A stretch of 51,132 bases of DNA from an uncultured Lachnospiraceae bacterium. Its GTDB lineage: Bacteria > Bacillota > Clostridia > Lachnospirales > Lachnospiraceae. Positions 43,529 through 51,132 of this stretch are shown here, one piece after another. Positions within the stretch are counted from its first letter, which is position 1; each line of letters begins with the position of its first letter. Under the pieces are notes generated by a model. That model did not search any database. It was given only the letters and a program-made list of their open reading frames with translations, and was not told the DNA's origin. Location of the stretch: contig CANREE010000010.1 in assembly GCA_947629545.1 (NCBI GenBank), positions 1 to 51,132 on the forward strand, read 5' to 3'. The position numbers and the translations under genes were made by a program.

Positions 43529-44500
43529 TTACGCCAGAAACGCAAGGATTTCCTTCCAGTACCCCTCAAGCACTTCCGTGGAAGAATTAAAGATCTCATG
43601 TTTCGTTCCCGCCACCTTTACGAAACGGGCGGCAGTCAGTCTTTCCCGGTTGATCCGGTTCACAAAGATCTCCTGCTCCGATCCCACGACAAAGGTATCG
43701 TTCTCCGACTGGAACAGAAGAATCGGCGTCCTGATCTTTTTCACCGCTTCCTCACGCAGATATTTGTTCAGCTGGGCAGCGCCGTAGACCCAGCCGCAGC
43801 TGGGCGACGTCATCTGGTAGATCTTAATGGTATCGCGCTTCCGCTGATAATAGTCATATCTCTCCCGGTTCATCGACGGGCTTCCCTCAAAGGTCTCCTT
43901 GCCGTCAAACGGATGCCCGCCCGGCACGTAAGACGCCCGCCGTCCCAGATGACAGAGGATCCAGGCCAGACTTTTCGCCGCCGGCCACGGGAGGCCCGCA
44001 GTGATCGGCCGGATCATAGGCGAAGAAAGGATCGCCTTTGTAAAAAGCTCCGGCTCAGCCGCCAGCGCCGCCGCCCCAACGCCGCCGCCCATGGAATGGG
44101 CGTACAGATACAGCTTCATATCCGGATGCTCTTTCTGCGCCAGATGCGCCACCGCCAGCAGATCCTTGATATAGCGGCTGTAGCTGTCCACATGGACAAG
44201 ACTGTAATCGTCCACGAGACGGTAGCTGTGGCCGTGGCCGCAGTGATCGTGCATATATACATGGTAATTATTTTTCAGGAAATAATAAATCGTTTCCTTG
44301 TACTTCTCCTCCGACTCCGTAAAGCCGTGGGAAATAACCATAACCCCAACCGGCTCGTCCGCCGTGTAACACGCGCAGTAAAGCTTCCTGCCTTCGTCCC
44401 GCGTCAGATAGACCACTTTCTTTCTGGCCTCCAGATACGGCACGACCGTCTCGTCCATGGTTTGTTTGTAGTTTTCTTCTTTCAGGATCTGGTCGTACAT
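43529..44500 (-). CDS. Alpha/beta hydrolase (lysophospholipase / monoacylglycerol lipase-like)
   Basis: A 323-residue serine hydrolase. The nucleophile elbow is AHSMGGG (Ser about residue 131), the oxyanion segment is VISHGFTESEEKY, the Asp is likely in LLFQSENDTFV, and the His in AGTKHEIF. HDHCGHGHSYR is typical of the Hydrolase_4 (PldB/MGL-like) family. The start MYDQILKEENYKQTMDETV has GGGGG upstream; the open frame to 44605 runs back through the terminator-like hairpin and is not used. There is no signal peptide, so it is cytosolic. Substrate unknown; probably a lipid ester. The leader contains a promoter-like sequence and a terminator-like hairpin. Confidence 0.88.
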   Translation of the reverse strand: MYDQILKEENYKQTMDETVVPYLEARKKVVYLTRDEGRKLYCACYTADEPVGVMVISHGFTESEEKYKETIYYFLKNNYHVYMHDHCGHGHSYRLVDDYSLVHVDSYSRYIKDLLAVAHLAQKEHPDMKLYLYAHSMGGGVGAAALAAEPELFTKAILSSPMIRPITAGLPWPAAKSLAWILCHLGRRASYVPGGHPFDGKETFEGSPSMNRERYDYYQRKRDTIKIYQMTSPSCGWVYGAAQLNKYLREEAVKKIRTPILLFQSENDTFVVGSEQEIFVNRINRERLTAARFVKVAGTKHEIFNSSTEVLEGYWKEILAFLA

Positions 44501-44534
44501 GTCGTTGAAATCCCCCTTACAAGATTGTGTCCAT

Positions 44535-44574
44535 AAACAAAACCGGCCGGAATCGTATCTCAGGTTCCGACCGG
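44535..44574 (-). terminator. Intrinsic terminator (or attenuator) before the hydrolase
   Basis: On the minus strand a ten-pair stem (44565-44574 with 44543-44552, one G-U pair) around a 12-base loop is directly followed by TTTTGTTT (44535-44542). It lies 62 bases beyond the stop of the antiporter operon, so it is most simply that operon's terminator. Because a promoter-like sequence lies just upstream of it, it would also be in the hydrolase leader. Confidence 0.75.
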
Positions 44575-44595
44575 ATCTACTGTATCCATAAGAGC

Positions 44596-44624
44596 AGTAT
44601 ACCACATGAAAGCAGATTTTTTAA
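44596..44624 (-). promoter_or_regulatory. Candidate promoter for the hydrolase
   Basis: On the minus strand TTAAAA (44619-44624) and TATACT (44596-44601) are spaced by 17 bases. Matches to the consensus are 4/6 and 5/6. It starts 12 bases past the stop of the upstream antiporter gene and precedes the hairpin at 44535-44574. Confidence 0.45.
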
Positions 44625-44635
44625 GCAAATTCTTT

Positions 44636-47053
44636 CTATTTTCCAAGAAATCCCCAGATCAGGTATATTAACGTCACGCAGAGTCCCACGCAGACCAGCA
44701 TCAGACCATAGGAGAAGCTCTCCTGAATCAGATGCATATTCCCTTTGAACTGCTCCTCACGGCGCACCAGACGGGCCGTCGCCGGTTCATGAAAGGGCAG
44801 CTTCTCCCGTCGCTTCCAGGGAAGCCGGCTTCTGAACGCCGCCGCGGCGTCGATAACGCCTCCGATCACATGGGCCGCCAGATCCGAATCATGAGGCTCC
44901 TTTACCGCCGGCACCTGCTTATGGGTCGTGAGACGTGCCATACGGATCAGCCAGTCCGCGCCGCTGTCCATTACCCTTCCGACGAACGTGGATACCGTCA
45001 GGAACGCCGCCGTCGCGGCCGGAACCAGATAGCGGTCGAGGAAACCGAACACCGCCCCGAAGACAGCCGGCAGGGCCACCTGCAGAATGGGCCGGTAGAC
45101 CAGATTCTCCAGATCAAGCCAGGATGGCCAGCGATCCACATAGCGGCGGCCTCCCGCGCCATCCGGTTCCATCAGAAGGCCTCGGATCACCGCGAAATAA
45201 AGGAGTACGCCGATACAGATACTGATTGCGCCGCCCTTCAGGTTCGCAGGGGACAGATACGCTACCGTATGCGCATGGCCCTGCACATGGAAGAACTCCT
45301 GCCCCAGATCCGCGATCCGATCCATGCTCAGATGGGCCGTCAGCCCGAGCGCCGGAAGGATGGCCGCCGTAATGACAAGCGCGGCTGTCGTCTCCGGACG
45401 CATGTATCCATGGGACGCATTGTGCGCCGCCGATGAAGCATGCAGTTTTTCCGTCGGTTTCTGGTTTTCCATCGCCGCACTGGTCTTCGTCTCGCCCTTA
45501 TGATTCTTCGTTCCCAAAGCTCTGCGAGCCGCCTTCGCATTGCTTCTGCTTCCGCTGCTGAAATGCTTCCGCGCGAATTCGCTGCACATTCCATCGTACC
45601 GCTCCTGCAGCTTTGGATCCGCATTCTTCTCCACGAACACCGCCACAAACAGCTTCAGCATATACGCTACTGTCATACCGCCGGTGATGAGAAATACCCA
45701 CTCCGCCAGATGCCAGACCCAGGGTCCGCCCACGGCTTCCATATATTCCACGATGCTCTCATGGATCAGCGTCTTGCTCACATACCCGTTCCACAGCGGG
45801 ATTCCGCCGATGCCCAGCGCCCCCATCGCAAACGCGAACATGAGCGCCGGCTTCTTCCGGCCAAATCCCCGGATTTCATTCAGATCCAGCTTGTGCAGGT
45901 TCATATATACCGCGCCCGCGCACAAAAACAGTACCAGCTTGAACAGCGAGTGATTGACCATATGAAGGAAGGCCCCCCGCACCGCCAGCGTATTGCCCTC
46001 TCCGATGCTGCGGAGCAGGCAGGCCATGCCGATACCGGTCAGGATAAAGCCAATCTGGGAAATGGACGAGCACGCCAGGGTCCGCTTCAGGTTGATGGAA
46101 AATACCGCCAGAAGCGCCCCCACAAACATGGTGATCAGTCCCAGCACCGCGATCAGAAGCCCCCAGCTGTGATCTGCCCCGAAAAGCCCGCAGGACACCA
46201 CGATGATGCCGAACACGCCGGTCTTCGTAAGTATCCCGGAAAGCAGCGCGCTGGCCGGCGCCGGCGCCTCCGGATGGGCCTTGGGCAGCCAGATATGCAG
46301 CGGAAAACAGCCCGCTTTCGCGCCGAAACCGAAAAGCAGAAGCGCGCCTGCCGTATAAAGCTGGGCCTTCGCCGTCGGGAAGAAGCTTCCGGGCATCCCG
46401 GGTGTGCTGCCGCTCCACGCAAGCCCCGGCAGCTTTCCCGCAACCCAAATGGAAGTCGGGCCGTCTGCGCCGCCAATTACAGAATAGGCCGTAACTGCCC
46501 CCTGAGACTGAGGAACCAGAGCCGCAGTCTGCCCGACTGCAGAAACCGCCGTTCCTTTCGCTGCAGCCACAGATAAGGCCTCACTCGCCTGCAGCGGCCA
46601 GTTCCCGCTCATCACCGCATCTGCCACCACACTGAGCTCATCGATCTCCAGCGTCCCGAACAGATCGTACAGCAGAAACAGCCCCATCAGCATCACCATG
46701 CCGCCGATGACCGCCACCGCCAGATACGTCTCCGCCGCCTTAAGGCTTGCGCTTCTCTCGTCAAACGCGACCCACACATAGGACGTAAAAGACATAATTT
46801 CAAAGAAAATAAACGTCGTAAACAGGTTCGCCGACAAAAACACGCCCACCGTCGCCGCGAACGTGGCCCAGAAGAAGATGTAATACCTCTTCCGGTTGGC
46901 GTAATGTGCCATATATTCACGTGAGAAGATTCCGCTGACCGTCCACATGAGCACGGCCACGATACAGTATACCAGACGGAACCCGTCCATTTTCAAATGC
47001 ATTCCCATGCCGCAGAAGCCGGGAATCACAACATCCATCCACACCTGATTCAT
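44636..47053 (-). CDS. Complex-I/Mrp antiporter-like membrane subunit (NuoL/MrpA-like), with loop insert
   Basis: An 805-residue protein with about 14-16 helices; proton/sodium-translocating subunit of a complex-I-like or Mrp-type assembly. Channel residues are visible: Glu in TTFIFFEIMSFTSY (helix 5, about residue 85), Lys246 in FGFGAKAGCFPLHIWLPKAHPEAPAPASALLSG (helix 7), Lys in LTKTG, His in HMVNHSLFKL, and Lys in GYVSK (helix 12). Between helices 6 and 7 lies an unusual insert (about 155-228) holding SVIGGADGPTSIWVAGKL. A second polar insert (about 510-565) lies before a C-terminal membrane region, and a long polar C-terminal segment precedes the last helix. Its start overlaps the upstream gene by four bases. 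The partner hydrogenase or dehydrogenase is not in the window. Confidence 0.88.
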   Translation of the reverse strand: MNQVWMDVVIPGFCGMGMHLKMDGFRLVYCIVAVLMWTVSGIFSREYMAHYANRKRYYIFFWATFAATVGVFLSANLFTTFIFFEIMSFTSYVWVAFDERSASLKAAETYLAVAVIGGMVMLMGLFLLYDLFGTLEIDELSVVADAVMSGNWPLQASEALSVAAAKGTAVSAVGQTAALVPQSQGAVTAYSVIGGADGPTSIWVAGKLPGLAWSGSTPGMPGSFFPTAKAQLYTAGALLLFGFGAKAGCFPLHIWLPKAHPEAPAPASALLSGILTKTGVFGIIVVSCGLFGADHSWGLLIAVLGLITMFVGALLAVFSINLKRTLACSSISQIGFILTGIGMACLLRSIGEGNTLAVRGAFLHMVNHSLFKLVLFLCAGAVYMNLHKLDLNEIRGFGRKKPALMFAFAMGALGIGGIPLWNGYVSKTLIHESIVEYMEAVGGPWVWHLAEWVFLITGGMTVAYMLKLFVAVFVEKNADPKLQERYDGMCSEFARKHFSSGSRSNAKAARRALGTKNHKGETKTSAAMENQKPTEKLHASSAAHNASHGYMRPETTAALVITAAILPALGLTAHLSMDRIADLGQEFFHVQGHAHTVAYLSPANLKGGAISICIGVLLYFAVIRGLLMEPDGAGGRRYVDRWPSWLDLENLVYRPILQVALPAVFGAVFGFLDRYLVPAATAAFLTVSTFVGRVMDSGADWLIRMARLTTHKQVPAVKEPHDSDLAAHVIGGVIDAAAAFRSRLPWKRREKLPFHEPATARLVRREEQFKGNMHLIQESFSYGLMLVCVGLCVTLIYLIWGFLGK

Positions 47054-48660
47054 CCCGCTTCACCTCCGATCAGTGCCAGGAACCGCAGCACCGGCCCCGC
47101 GTGGAGCCCCACCGCCACGATCACGACGGCGAAGATCACGAGAGGCAGAAGCATCCGCCAGCTTGGATCCTGATTGCCGGTTTCAGCCGCGGCGTCCGCC
47201 GTGCCGCCGGCCGGCACATTTTCATACGAAGAAAATGCCAGCGGCGCTTTGCTCGTATTTTCCGCCTGCTTCACCATCTTCGGAAAATACGCCCGCACCA
47301 CCGTCGACAGCATATAGATCCCGGTCATCAGTGCTGAATACAGGATCACGGCCACGCCGATATACGGCAGTACCCGTCCGACTGTGCCTCCCGCGCCGCC
47401 GCTCATCCCGCCGCCCAGGCTCAGCGCCGCCTCGCAGAGACTCCATTTGCTGACAAAGCCCGCAAACATCGGAATCCCCATCAGCGACAGGGCCGATACC
47501 GTAAAGCAGGCAAACGTCACCGGCATCCGGTAACCCATGCCGTCCAGTTCATAAATATAGGTCTTGCCGGTGCGGTGCATCACGGCACCTGCGCAGAAGA
47601 AGGCGCTGATCTTCATAAATGCGTGCGCCAGCAGATGAATAAGCGCCGCCACCAGTCCCAGCGGACTCATCATCGACGCGCCGAACAGGATATAGGACAG
47701 ATTGCTGATCGTGGAATACGCAAGCCTCCGTTTCCAGTGGACTTCCTTCACCGCCATGGTTGACGCGAAGACAATGGTCACCAGAGCCGCAGCCATTACC
47801 ACCCACTGGGCCCAGGTTCCGTAAAGAATATCCGTCCCGTAGCTGAAATACGTGAACCGCAGCACGGCAAACGCGCCGGCCTTCACCACCGCCACCGCAT
47901 GCAGCAGGGCTGTCACCGGGGTCGGGGCCACCGCCGCCTTCGGGAGCCAGTCATGCAGCGGAAATACCGCCGCCTTGACGCCGAAACCGAAGAAAGCCAG
48001 TACATAGACGAATAATAACAGATTCTTCCTGTCCGAAGCCGCTGCCGGATCCAGCATACCGCCGGCCACGAACTCCGTGGTTCCGATCGCCGAGAAGGAA
48101 AGAACCGTCACCAGACCGATGAACGCGAAGGCTGCGCCGCCGATGGAATAATACAGGTACTGCCTCGTGGCCCTCGCCGCCTCGGTCGTCATCGGATGCA
48201 TGACCAGCGGAAATGTAGCGAACGTAAGCATTTCATAGAACAAATACATGGTCACCAGGTTCCCTGCCAGCGCCACGCCCAGCGTCACGCCGTAGGAAAT
48301 CGTATAAAATGCGAAAAATACCGGTCTTCTCTCTTCGTGCTCCATATATTCAAAGGCATACAGCGTCGCAAGCGGCCAGAGAAAGGCCACCAGCCCCGCG
48401 AATACGCTCCCCATCCGGTCCAGACGGAACATAACCGTCAGCTGGCCGTAGAGCCGAAACAGCACGAGACTGCCGCTTCTGCCGCCATTTCCAACGATCA
48501 GCCACGCCACCAGCAGGCTGTTTACAAGCACAAGCGCTTCCACCAGCCACTGCATGATCCTCTCCCGCTTCTGGCTGCGGATCCATCCATTCATCGCAAG
48601 CAGCACCACGCCGCCGACAACCGGCAGAAATACAGGCGCCGCCAACAACCGATCATACAT
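47050..48660 (-). CDS. Complex-I/Mrp antiporter-like membrane subunit (NuoM/MrpD-like)
   Basis: A 536-residue membrane protein with about 14 helices. Conserved Proton_antipo_M features are Glu in MYLFYEMLTFATFPLVM (helix 5), Lys in FFGFGVKAAVFPLHDWLPKAAVAPTPVTALLHAVAVVKAGAFAVLR (helices 7 and 8, two lysines), His in HLLAHAFMKISAFFCAGAV, and Lys in FAGFVSKW (helix 12). A glycine-rich stretch GGGMSGGAGG follows the last of these. The C-terminal part (from KMVKQAENTSK to GNQDPS) is a polar linker before a final helix. An ACGGAGG ribosome site precedes the ATG. It overlaps the next gene by four bases. The role is cation translocation in a multi-subunit complex; which complex is unresolved. Confidence 0.88.
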   Translation of the reverse strand: MYDRLLAAPVFLPVVGGVVLLAMNGWIRSQKRERIMQWLVEALVLVNSLLVAWLIVGNGGRSGSLVLFRLYGQLTVMFRLDRMGSVFAGLVAFLWPLATLYAFEYMEHEERRPVFFAFYTISYGVTLGVALAGNLVTMYLFYEMLTFATFPLVMHPMTTEAARATRQYLYYSIGGAAFAFIGLVTVLSFSAIGTTEFVAGGMLDPAAASDRKNLLLFVYVLAFFGFGVKAAVFPLHDWLPKAAVAPTPVTALLHAVAVVKAGAFAVLRFTYFSYGTDILYGTWAQWVVMAAALVTIVFASTMAVKEVHWKRRLAYSTISNLSYILFGASMMSPLGLVAALIHLLAHAFMKISAFFCAGAVMHRTGKTYIYELDGMGYRMPVTFACFTVSALSLMGIPMFAGFVSKWSLCEAALSLGGGMSGGAGGTVGRVLPYIGVAVILYSALMTGIYMLSTVVRAYFPKMVKQAENTSKAPLAFSSYENVPAGGTADAAAETGNQDPSWRMLLPLVIFAVVIVAVGLHAGPVLRFLALIGGEAG

Positions 48661-48849: not shown

Positions 48850-50454
48850 CTACGGCATCACCGCCGCCGCGATCGTTTCCACAAATGTCACCAGCGGTCC
48901 CGGAAAGCAGCCCAGCAGAAGCGCGGCTGCCGCCAGAATCACGATGGGAACCAGCATGAAAAGCGACGGTTCCTTCTTCGAAAGTCCTCTCTCCGCGATC
49001 TCTTTTCCATCAAAATCCTGTCCCGGGAAATATCCCTGGATCATGATCGGAAGCAGATATCCCGCGGTCAGAAGCGCGCTGATCAGTAGCACCACCGGCC
49101 CGGCAAATCCAAGCGCTCCGGTGCCGGAAGCAAGCGAACCCGTGGCCAGGTACCATTTGCTGACAAAACCGCTGAAAGGCGGAATGCCGATCAGCGCCAG
49201 GGACGCCATCGTATAGCAGGCAAGAGCCAGCGGCATCACACGCCCCAGTCCGCGAAGCTGATCCACCTTCTTCCAGCCGGTCACCACGATCACCGCTCCC
49301 GCGAACAGGAACAGGCAGGTTTTAATCACCGAATGGAACACCACATGGGTCAGCGCCCCCGTAAATCCGACCGGATTCATCAGACTTAAGCCGAACAGAA
49401 CATATGACACCTGGCTGACCGTCGAGTAGGCCAGACGTTTCTTGAACACTTTCTCGCAATACGCCAGCATGGAACCCATAAATACAGTCAGAAGCGCCAG
49501 AACCATCCACGCCGCCTGCACCCAGGTACCGCGAAGCACATCCGGACCTACCAGAAAATAAACAATACGCACCAGCGCCAGGACGCCGGCCTTGGTGATC
49601 ACGCCGGACAGCACCGCGCTGGCCGGGGCCGGAGCCACCGGATGAGCGATCGGCAGCCACCCATGAAGCGGGAACATACCGGCCTTGGTGCCGAAACCGA
49701 CGATCATGCAGAAGACCGCCGTCAGAAGAAGCGGCGCTCCCGCTGCCATTTCCGCCGTAAAACGGCCGCCCGCCGTGAAGCTCAAATCGCCGCACACATT
49801 GGCAAGATAGAAAATCCCGAACAGCGCCAGAAATGCGCCGCCCACCGAGTAAAACAGGTATTTCAGACCTGCCTGAACCGCTTCCTTCGTCAGCTCGTGA
49901 AGAACCAGCGGCAGGGACGTCAGCGTCATCATTTCATAGAACACATAAAATGTCACCAGATCCGCCGCGCAGTCAAGGCCGACCAGCACGCCGACGACAA
50001 TCAGGTAGAAGCCGTAAAACCGCTCCGCCCACTCCTCATGTTTCATATAAGCGACCGAATGGATTCCGGTCAGAAGCCACATGATCGATGTCAGAACCGC
50101 GAACAGACTTCCCAGGCCGTCCACACGAAGGCCCAGCGTCAGCGTATCGGTCAGGGAAAAGAGCCGCACGCTCCCGCCGCCTGCAGCGGCCAGAATCACA
50201 AAAACCGTTTCCAGCGCCAGCGCAGCCATGTAAATGAGATCCAGCGTCGTGATCTGACCATGGGAGGCTGTGCTGCCTGCGTTAGTCACGGCGTCTGTTC
50301 CGGACACAGCACTACCGGACGCACGATCCCCAGCCGTTTCTCCGGGCGCAGGACTTCCCTGCAACGCCTTCTTCTTAGAATTACACATTCCTGTATATAC
50401 CAGAATCGCGACTCCCGCCGCGATCGGCCAGAGAACCGGAAGCAATACTCTCAT
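48850..50454 (-). CDS. Complex-I/Mrp antiporter-like membrane subunit (NuoM/MrpD-like)
   Basis: A 534-residue membrane protein with about 14 helices. Channel motifs are Glu in FYVFYEMMTLTSLPLVLHELTKEAVQAGLKYL, Lys in GFGTKAGMFPLHGWLPIAHPVAPAPASAVLSGVITKAGVLALVR, His in HVVFHSVIKTCLFLFAGAV, and Lys in FSGFVSKWYLA. After the first helix there is a Ser/Ala/Gly-rich polar loop of about 45 residues (KKALQGSPAPGETAGDRASG... to HGQIT), longer than usual. A GAGGAGG ribosome site precedes the ATG. It follows the upstream subunit by 18 bp and is separated from the next by the tandem repeat. It is clearly a paralogue of the 536-residue subunit. Confidence 0.88.
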   Translation of the reverse strand: MRVLLPVLWPIAAGVAILVYTGMCNSKKKALQGSPAPGETAGDRASGSAVSGTDAVTNAGSTASHGQITTLDLIYMAALALETVFVILAAAGGGSVRLFSLTDTLTLGLRVDGLGSLFAVLTSIMWLLTGIHSVAYMKHEEWAERFYGFYLIVVGVLVGLDCAADLVTFYVFYEMMTLTSLPLVLHELTKEAVQAGLKYLFYSVGGAFLALFGIFYLANVCGDLSFTAGGRFTAEMAAGAPLLLTAVFCMIVGFGTKAGMFPLHGWLPIAHPVAPAPASAVLSGVITKAGVLALVRIVYFLVGPDVLRGTWVQAAWMVLALLTVFMGSMLAYCEKVFKKRLAYSTVSQVSYVLFGLSLMNPVGFTGALTHVVFHSVIKTCLFLFAGAVIVVTGWKKVDQLRGLGRVMPLALACYTMASLALIGIPPFSGFVSKWYLATGSLASGTGALGFAGPVVLLISALLTAGYLLPIMIQGYFPGQDFDGKEIAERGLSKKEPSLFMLVPIVILAAAALLLGCFPGPLVTFVETIAAAVMP

Positions 50455-50472: not shown

Positions 50473-51132
50473 TTATCCAAACATCGCAAGCCCGTCCGTA
50501 ATTGCGCGGACGATAGGCTGCGAGAATAATCCCAGAATCAGATTCAGAATGATGAAGCACACGATGGCGAGCCGCATGGTCCACGGGTTTGCCGCAAGCG
50601 CGGCGGAACCGCTGCCTGCCGCACCGCCTCTGCCGTCCCTCTCCGCCGGCTCCATTTCCGCGAAACTCCCACTCTTCGTCGGCCGGTACAGACCGATCAT
50701 CAGCCGCAGGAAATAGATTGCGTTCAACACTGTACTGACCGCCAGCGCGATCAGCGTGATCAGCATCTTATGCGGGCTGGCAAATGCCGACGTGGCGAAC
50801 AGCAGCTTGGAGATAAAGCCCGCCAGCATCGGAAATCCCACCATGGACAGCGCACCAACCAGAAAGCCCGCGCCCGCCAGCCGGTTCCGGTAGGCGCTTC
50901 CGCGGAGCGCCAGGAAATCGGTCCGGTCGCCGGATACCTTGTAAAGCCCCACACAGCTGATGAACAGCAGCGCCTTTGTCGCGCCGTGGGAGAAGATATG
51001 GAAAATGGCCGCGATCATTCCCGCCTGGGTTCCCAGGCCGATGCCCATATAGATATAGCCGATCTGGGCCACCGACGAATAGGCGATCATTTTCCGGGTG
51101 TCCGTCTGCATGATGGCCCGCAGGGAGCCGAA
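50473..51132 (-). CDS. Complex-I/Mrp antiporter-like membrane subunit, C-terminal part (5' end beyond window)
   Basis: The C-terminal 219 residues of a further Proton_antipo_M subunit. The frame is open to the window edge (FGSLRAIMQTDTRKMIAYSSVAQIGYIYMGIG), so the start lies outside. Visible are the segment with His (FHIFSHGATKALLFISCVGLY), the helix-12 lysine (LAGFISKLLFA) and the last helix LAIVCFIILNLILGLFSQPIV. A Gly/Ala/Glu-rich insert (AEMEPAERDGRGGAAGSGSAALA) precedes the last helix. Resembles NuoN/MrpD-like proteins. It is first of four in a row. Confidence 0.85.
   Translation of the reverse strand, partial: FGSLRAIMQTDTRKMIAYSSVAQIGYIYMGIGLGTQAGMIAAIFHIFSHGATKALLFISCVGLYKVSGDRTDFLALRGSAYRNRLAGAGFLVGALSMVGFPMLAGFISKLLFATSAFASPHKMLITLIALAVSTVLNAIYFLRLMIGLYRPTKSGSFAEMEPAERDGRGGAAGSGSAALAANPWTMRLAIVCFIILNLILGLFSQPIVRAITDGLAMFG

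Follow-up and report, generated by a model that had tools for sequence, protein, structure and literature searches.

A peptide resembling the sodium-site hairpin of OadB in an Mrp-like antiporter subunit and in many unrelated proteins of Clostridia

Results

An OadB-like peptide lies in an antiporter subunit

The window analysed here is a stretch of 51,132 nucleotides from an uncultured Lachnospiraceae bacterium, and towards its end lie the following features, in which residues are those of the 805-residue subunit and a copy of the peptide outside OadB is called a tag.

44636..47053, minus strand: gene for an Mrp/NuoL-like antiporter subunit of 805 amino acids, the peptide carrier (open reading frame and Proton_antipo_M, PF00361)
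46316..46318, minus strand: conserved channel lysine of TM7, Lys246 (alignment and translation)
46361..46639, minus strand: long, length-variable TM6-TM7 loop, residues 139-231, with the peptide inside (alignment)
46427..46489, minus strand: OadB-H1-like peptide module of 21 residues (189-209), delimited by likeness to OadB from -5 to +15 around GGADGPT
46454..46474, minus strand: core GGADGPT, residues 194-200, with Asp197 the equivalent of OadB Asp203
47050..48660, minus strand: antiporter-like subunit next to the tagged gene, without the peptide (open reading frame, Pfam, NCBIfam and motif search)
48850..50454, minus strand: antiporter-like subunit of the same cluster, without the peptide (open reading frame, Pfam, NCBIfam and motif search)
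50473..51132, minus strand: antiporter-like subunit truncated by the contig end, its visible part without the peptide (open reading frame, Pfam and NCBIfam)

The tagged subunit matches Proton_antipo_M strongly in Pfam (E = 2.6e-51, 175 bits against a cut-off of 21.5), and its top NCBIfam match is hydrogenase 4 subunit B, which, like all the NCBIfam matches of the antiporter-like subunits in the window, falls under its curated cut-off. Glu85 in TM5 and Lys246 in TM7 are invariant in an alignment of eight sequences. In the relative G001 (locus L383) the cluster goes on with genes whose best NCBIfam matches are subunit E, DUF4040 and subunit B (E values of 1e-22, 4e-25 and 2e-44 respectively, all under the curated cut-offs), and the window contig stops before such genes; we call the host locus an Mrp-like cation/H+ antiporter cluster, four of whose subunits are of NuoL/M/N type. 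A 358-residue open reading frame (43529-44605, minus strand), alpha/beta-hydrolase-like by eye, adjoins the tagged subunit and has a homolog at the same place in G001 (L383:12516-13484). Ahead of its YMRPET helix the subunit also has another hydrophilic insert, some 60 residues long (residues ~490-550, window ~45400-45590), which is found in G000, G004 and G012, has a shortened form in G008, G021 and G025 and is missing from most other congeners.

Residues 192-208 of the subunit read VIGGADGPTSIWVAGKL and are encoded at 46430-46480 on the minus strand, where the initial annotation had placed such a peptide, but its range of 46430..46486 takes in two additional residues (Y190 and S191). Its numbering of the channel lysine as Lys246 is right by count from the translation. 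The loop is 93 residues long (139-231) compared to 16 in G025 and 34 in G003, and by hand count some 59-77 residues longer than in untagged congeners. We take this loop to be external by analogy with the NuoL fold. It precedes Lys246, which lies 52 residues on from the GG at 194, and the tag stands ~66 residues after TM6 and ~29 before TM7, a departure from the OadB-like spacing described below.

In the window, VIGGADGPTSIW closely matches the OadB H1 pattern IIGGADGPT[SA]I[FY] (V for I and W for F or Y). A profile of 54 peptides matches the window copy in its own genome at E = 8.1e-13, a value that is partly circular because the window copy is among the 54, and Pfam OAD_beta reaches E = 0.0042 on the window protein (16.6 bits against a cut-off of 31.6) with a match limited to residues 160-208. 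The H2 motif of OadB (GVSAVPM) is absent from the window contig; its sole match in the genome lies in contig C53, beside the genome's other GGADGPT match, which is its oadB.

The peptide has been kept, decayed and lost within the genus

The 805-residue protein is matched at E <= 1e-40 in 22 of 26 genus genomes, and the loop alignment takes in 20 of these 22, without the pieces from G013 and G002. Alignment in relatives, a check named in the initial annotation, found the insert kept in six species besides the window's own (seven orthologs: G000, G004, G012, G015, G009, G001 and G008), decayed to GADGPTVVWTAGMF in G019, which is counted apart, and absent from 12 orthologs, namely 11 others and that of G021, a protein 84% identical overall in which a deletion has left AGNLPE as all that remains. 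As six further species have the peptide in the same protein, with synonymous differences, an assembly or one-off artefact is ruled out; cultured isolates, going by record titles, have such tags in other proteins.

A codon comparison of the seven tagged orthologs gave a pN/pS of 0.12 for the tag, compared to 0.37 and 0.43 for its two loop flanks, 0.10 before the loop and 0.23 after it, and the upstream part of the loop is full of length changes. The pN of the core was 0 at a pS of 0.33, a low value that is favoured by the choice of these seven orthologs for having the core, a choice that bears neither on synonymous changes nor on the tag positions outside the core. In this family the peptide is therefore under strong purifying selection within a fast-changing loop.

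The peptide recurs in unrelated proteins

A search for the motif outside the OadB family, likewise named in the initial annotation, found many unrelated proteins of Clostridia that carry the peptide. When a GGADGPT DNA pattern was searched in 61 relatives and 150 family genomes, most of the matches that were read were OadB and many were not. The family genomes gave 171 matches in 135 of the 150, with two or more in 31 genomes, compared to 2 matches in the 150 for a reversed-pattern control, and this control, together with conservation at positions outside the searched 7-mer, rules out chance occurrence. The OadB H2 motif, used as a further control, gave 138 matches in 131 of the 150 genomes, with two in 7 genomes, and, unlike GGADGPT, did not spread. 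A non-OadB copy was found in at least 32 of the 150 genomes, that is, in 28 of the 31 with several matches (three having OadB alone, and the tag place alone being read for G082 and G129) and in four with a single match (G165, G031, G078 and G072); this is a lower bound because most other single matches were unread or were OadB.

For a wider scan of an 84,980-species collection we used a longer form with Val at +8, a residue nearly never seen there in OadB (Ile in 91 and Leu in 2 of 93). This gave 113 stretches, 105 of which yielded non-OadB open reading frames with duplicates excluded, and the 80 of the 113 titles that were listed belong nearly all to Lachnospiraceae, Oscillospiraceae, other Clostridia or unnamed bacteria, with one Marinilabiliaceae MAG among them. 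Carriage by phages or plasmids was considered as a cause and rejected: two of 11 phage records were read (L380 and L381), both OadB-like, and among five plasmid records three are annotated as decarboxylase beta subunit, one is unread and one (L382) is a tag. Its carrier, HAAS-like by eye, is encoded on a 215-kb plasmid of Subdoligranulum variabile.

After masking of the tag, 145 non-OadB open reading frames fell into 52 rough BLAST clusters, which are not all independent; the 145 include genes fetched twice (e.g. L032/L210), one cluster mixes the window family with TM198-like proteins, and OadB was excluded by a text rule (an AYSYM or ANP..GAAAQ stretch) with no profile used. Among the tagged hosts scanned, matches above the cut-off come from at least 11 unrelated Pfam families (Proton_antipo_M, Peptidase_M56, Rhodanese, CDP-OH_P_transf, DUF3658 with DUF1835, ABC_sub_bind, DUF6449, Rotamase, FMN_bind, Peripla_BP_2 and HTH_3), with HAAS and TM198 matches under theirs, and as so many unrelated families share it the peptide is not special to the antiporter. 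They include BlaR1/M56 sensors, rhodaneses, PgsA, binding proteins, ABC permeases, lipoproteins and tiny membrane proteins, many being proteins of 50-110 amino acids with one or two predicted TM helices. Tags occupy N-termini, C-termini, loops and linkers, 39 of 145 being within 30 residues of the N-terminus and 6 within 30 of the C-terminus. No peptide-specific neighbour was found in the 25 largest neighbour groups (904 open reading frames at 113 loci), which are ordinary. L171 and L208 were considered as pyrophosphatases and this was rejected, as L171 has no such match and the cluster relatives L215 and L262 match DUF6449.

The rhodanese family was matched in 32 of 100 genomes. The rhodaneses L385 and L387 are tagged and L386 has a degenerate tag (GSDGPT), all after a TM anchor, while the untagged homologs listed had a lipobox-like Cys in 22 of 25 and a tag in 0 of 25 (L395 being a wrong frame); across L385-L414 the tag seems to go with the type of anchor, TM anchor versus lipoprotein-like. 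L403, an open frame of 199 amino acids, matches a tagged rhodanese over the TM anchor and tag alone and not over the rhodanese domain, as if anchor and tag were a unit set before another domain. The soluble-looking L095 family gave 6 matches in 5 of 100 genomes, with three GGADGPT tags, one GGSDGPT, one degenerate tag in a fusion and one mostly decayed; in L416 a degenerate tag stands where a glutamine-amidotransferase-like domain (by eye) joins an L095-type domain. Two proteins have two tags each: L248 (Peripla_BP_2), with tags 28 residues apart soon after a predicted signal helix and identical at 54 of 57 bases, and L186, with 41 of 57 bases identical. Three proteins that share with OadB the short peptide alone, L179 (a TM-tag-TM protein of 77 amino acids from Faecalimonas umbilicata), L276 and L248, score over the curated cut-off of Pfam OAD_beta, and this is a trap for automatic annotation.

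Tags resemble the OadB of their own genome in amino acids

The likeness of non-OadB copies to OadB runs from position -5 to +15 relative to GGADGPT, no clear likeness being seen outside this stretch, and includes positions left free by the 7-mer search (39 non-OadB rows, without the duplicates L032 and L110, against 93 OadB entries that include genes fetched twice). The consensus of the module is [SA][IV][SGA][IV]IGGADGPT[SA][IV][FWY][VIL][AST]G[KR..]xG. The profile was built from 54 of 65 candidate peptides (at most two per cluster, with L011 and tags too near an end left out), and its matches among PDB sequences were to OadB alone (6iva and 6iww). The structural study of OadB from StOAD (PMC7274780) describes the H1 sequence as a helical hairpin pointing into the folded interior, where Asp203 at the H1 tip faces Ser382 at the H2 tip at the Na+ site, which also requires Ser382 and Asn412 from other helices; the D203A change severely inhibited Na+ binding and abolished stimulated activity. 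Degenerate tags read GGSDGPT, GGGDGPT and, in one different host (L312), GGANGPT, so the Asp is not absolute in tags. Four OadB paralogs (L323-L326) have GAADGPT in place of GGADGPT.

Tags were compared with the OadB of their own genome in 70 genomes having both a GGADGPT OadB and a tag, with one tag per genome, genomes with disagreeing OadB paralogs left out and one mis-collected OadB of G217 removed. At +7, where OadB has S the tag has S in 28 genomes and another residue in 6, and where OadB has A the counts are 6 and 28 (P = 1e-7); at -3, among genomes with A or G, they are 5 and 1 against 2 and 26 (P = 4e-4). As kinship was ignored in both tests, the association could largely come from two lineages having forms of their own. 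Codon identity of tags was 0.434 to the own OadB and 0.406 to those of other genomes of like GC3 (74 tags; Wilcoxon P = 0.036), a small excess inflated by the choice, as own value, of the best among several OadB paralogs. Tags thus resemble the OadB of their own genome in amino acids and hardly in codons, with little sign of recent copying.

Between host clusters the tag DNA had a median of 38 identical bases in 63, and the four closest pairs examined shared no flank word of over 9 bases. Flanking inverted arms averaged 6.55 compared to 6.49 at random positions, and direct repeats 7.21 compared to 6.97 (145 tags and 357 random positions). Of the 46 tag-bearing genomes examined, 44 gave a full OadB and two, G216 and G224, did not; these, with G031 and G072, have peptide-sized OadB matches alone and may be incomplete, the two of known completeness standing at 67% and 60%.

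Many tags are predicted to lie outside, beside a TM helix

TM helices and sides were predicted by simple hydropathy and charge counts (TM threshold 1.7 for tags and 1.4 for OadB, with distances under 60 residues counted). A TM helix lay within 30 residues of 88 of 145 tags, compared to 31% for positions drawn at random from these proteins, and 33 of the 145 tagged frames had no predicted TM helix. By charge, 77 of these 88 TM-near tags were predicted outside, 8 inside and 3 were undecided, so that in 77 of the 145 tagged frames the peptide is predicted outside beside a TM helix. Median distances were 16 residues from the TM end to the GG (n = 65) and 13 from the T to the next TM start (n = 71), and in OadB, at its lower TM threshold, they were 16 and 13 (n = 89); for OadB itself, H1 lies on the less positive side in each of the 86 that were counted among the 89. 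Cytoplasmic-looking carriers exist in the DUF1835/DUF3658, L095 and L241 families.

Discussion

Compared with OadB (PF03977, TIGR01109; PDB 6iva and 6iww), the tags have the same 21-residue H1 sequence and those near TM helices mostly share its predicted side and spacing, but nothing outside the peptide is common to them, and the window protein lacks the H2 motif and scores under the whole-protein cut-off. With Mrp and NuoL/M/N proteins (PF00361) the likeness is that of the tagged host and its neighbours, whereas the other antiporter-like subunits of the window and 12 of the 20 aligned orthologs lack the peptide. At the level of sequence, what we have found is a portable, conserved OadB-like peptide in many unrelated proteins of Clostridia.

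The reading that we prefer, and to which we give a probability of roughly 0.4, is that the window holds one copy of a portable, roughly 21-residue module, an OadB-H1-like surface hairpin or recognition motif. Such a module would be a membrane-proximal external hairpin or recognition motif imitating H1, which might dock with other copies of the module or with a partner that the hosts have in common, and this docking would mark or gather envelope proteins; in the antiporter it would be an accessory tag in an external loop, outside the ion path. Counting against the module are the lack of a partner among the 25 largest neighbour groups, the soluble-looking carriers, the atypical spacing of the window tag, the tags in (perhaps incomplete) genomes where no full OadB was found, and the Asp that is not absolute. 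A wider proposal, that a copy of the OadB sodium-site hairpin serves Clostridia as an all-purpose surface module of envelope proteins (sensors, transporters, binding proteins and small membrane proteins), wherever in the protein it stands, that either one shared partner or Na+ itself reads it, and that it evolves with the cell's own OadB, is offered tentatively and may well not hold.

The initial annotation had proposed a transplanted peptide that changes ion handling, folding beside TM7-8 of the antiporter so that its Asp helps to bind or select Na+. The host does belong to an antiporter-subunit family and the equivalent Asp203 at the H1 tip matters for Na+ binding in OadB (PMC7274780), but the idea finds no support in the sequences compared and we consider it highly improbable. 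Sensors, rhodaneses, a phospholipid synthase, lipoproteins and soluble-looking proteins, from which no ion transport would be expected, carry the peptide as well, and among close relatives of the antiporter G021 has lost it and G019 has let it decay with the antiporter core kept. The site in OadB draws on Ser382 and Asn412 from other helices too (PMC7274780), another host has Asn for Asp, and some 29 residues separate the window tag from TM7. The suggested physical connection of two unrelated Na+ pumps thus holds as sequence and does not extend beyond it. The other suggestion, a peptide-coding insert spreading in Lachnospiraceae, stands at the protein level, with Oscillospiraceae and other Clostridia added, but does not look like mobile DNA. 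A small mobile element spreading in frame, with conservation of the peptide as a by-product, would suit the scatter of unrelated hosts and the near-identical tandem copies of L248, and would be akin to the Rickettsia palindromic elements and PARCEL coding repeats, in which one coding repeat is reported from different proteins (PMC2229807, PMC2996958). The tags differ from these in having no palindrome or flanking repeats and in their diverged codons, and a mobile element is quite unlikely because codon usage has diverged between copies and the flanks show no more inverted or direct repeats than random positions do; the distant tag DNA with no shared flanks, the small codon excess towards the own OadB and the strong purifying selection on the peptide also argue against it.

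LPXTG and PEP-CTERM sorting tags are likewise peptides borne by many envelope proteins, but the present tag is not tied to one terminus and no processing partner was found for it. A decoy or mimic of OadB, aimed at an outside agent (a protease, bacteriocin, phage or host immunity) that drives the match to the own OadB, would fit that match and the predicted external position of 77 of the 88 TM-near copies; we know of no such agent, cytoplasmic-looking carriers exist, and the hairpin points into the folded interior of OadB (PMC7274780), making a decoy very unlikely. Stacking between copies as a strand-turn-strand (SIxII-GGADGPT-SVFVAG), by which carriers would meet, recalls the bacterial amyloid signalling motifs, short motifs reported to be common to different proteins (PMC8086366, PMC12261475). 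The length of about 21 residues, the glycine-rich turn between beta-branched runs, the places at termini and linkers of unrelated proteins and the soluble-looking carriers are consistent with it, but the tag instead matches a transporter hairpin that is helical in OadB (PMC7274780), many copies flank TM helices and are predicted outside, and no NLR domain was seen among the hosts scanned, so that self-assembly of this kind is unlikely.

The string GGADGPT was absent from the 5.39 million open papers searched, a set that leaves out most subscription papers and preprints, and on related ideas the literature searched gave the OadB structure paper and general analogues alone; such absence is weak evidence, given this coverage and how seldom papers print sequences in their text. 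To our knowledge, no case of such a portable OadB-hairpin tag has been described.

If the portable module is the right reading, the active-site hairpin of a transporter would have been turned into a portable tag across at least 11 unrelated families of gut-bacterial proteins. This would imply a recognition or sensing system at the cell surface of these bacteria, and would also explain why unrelated proteins (L179, L276 and L248) can score as OadB.
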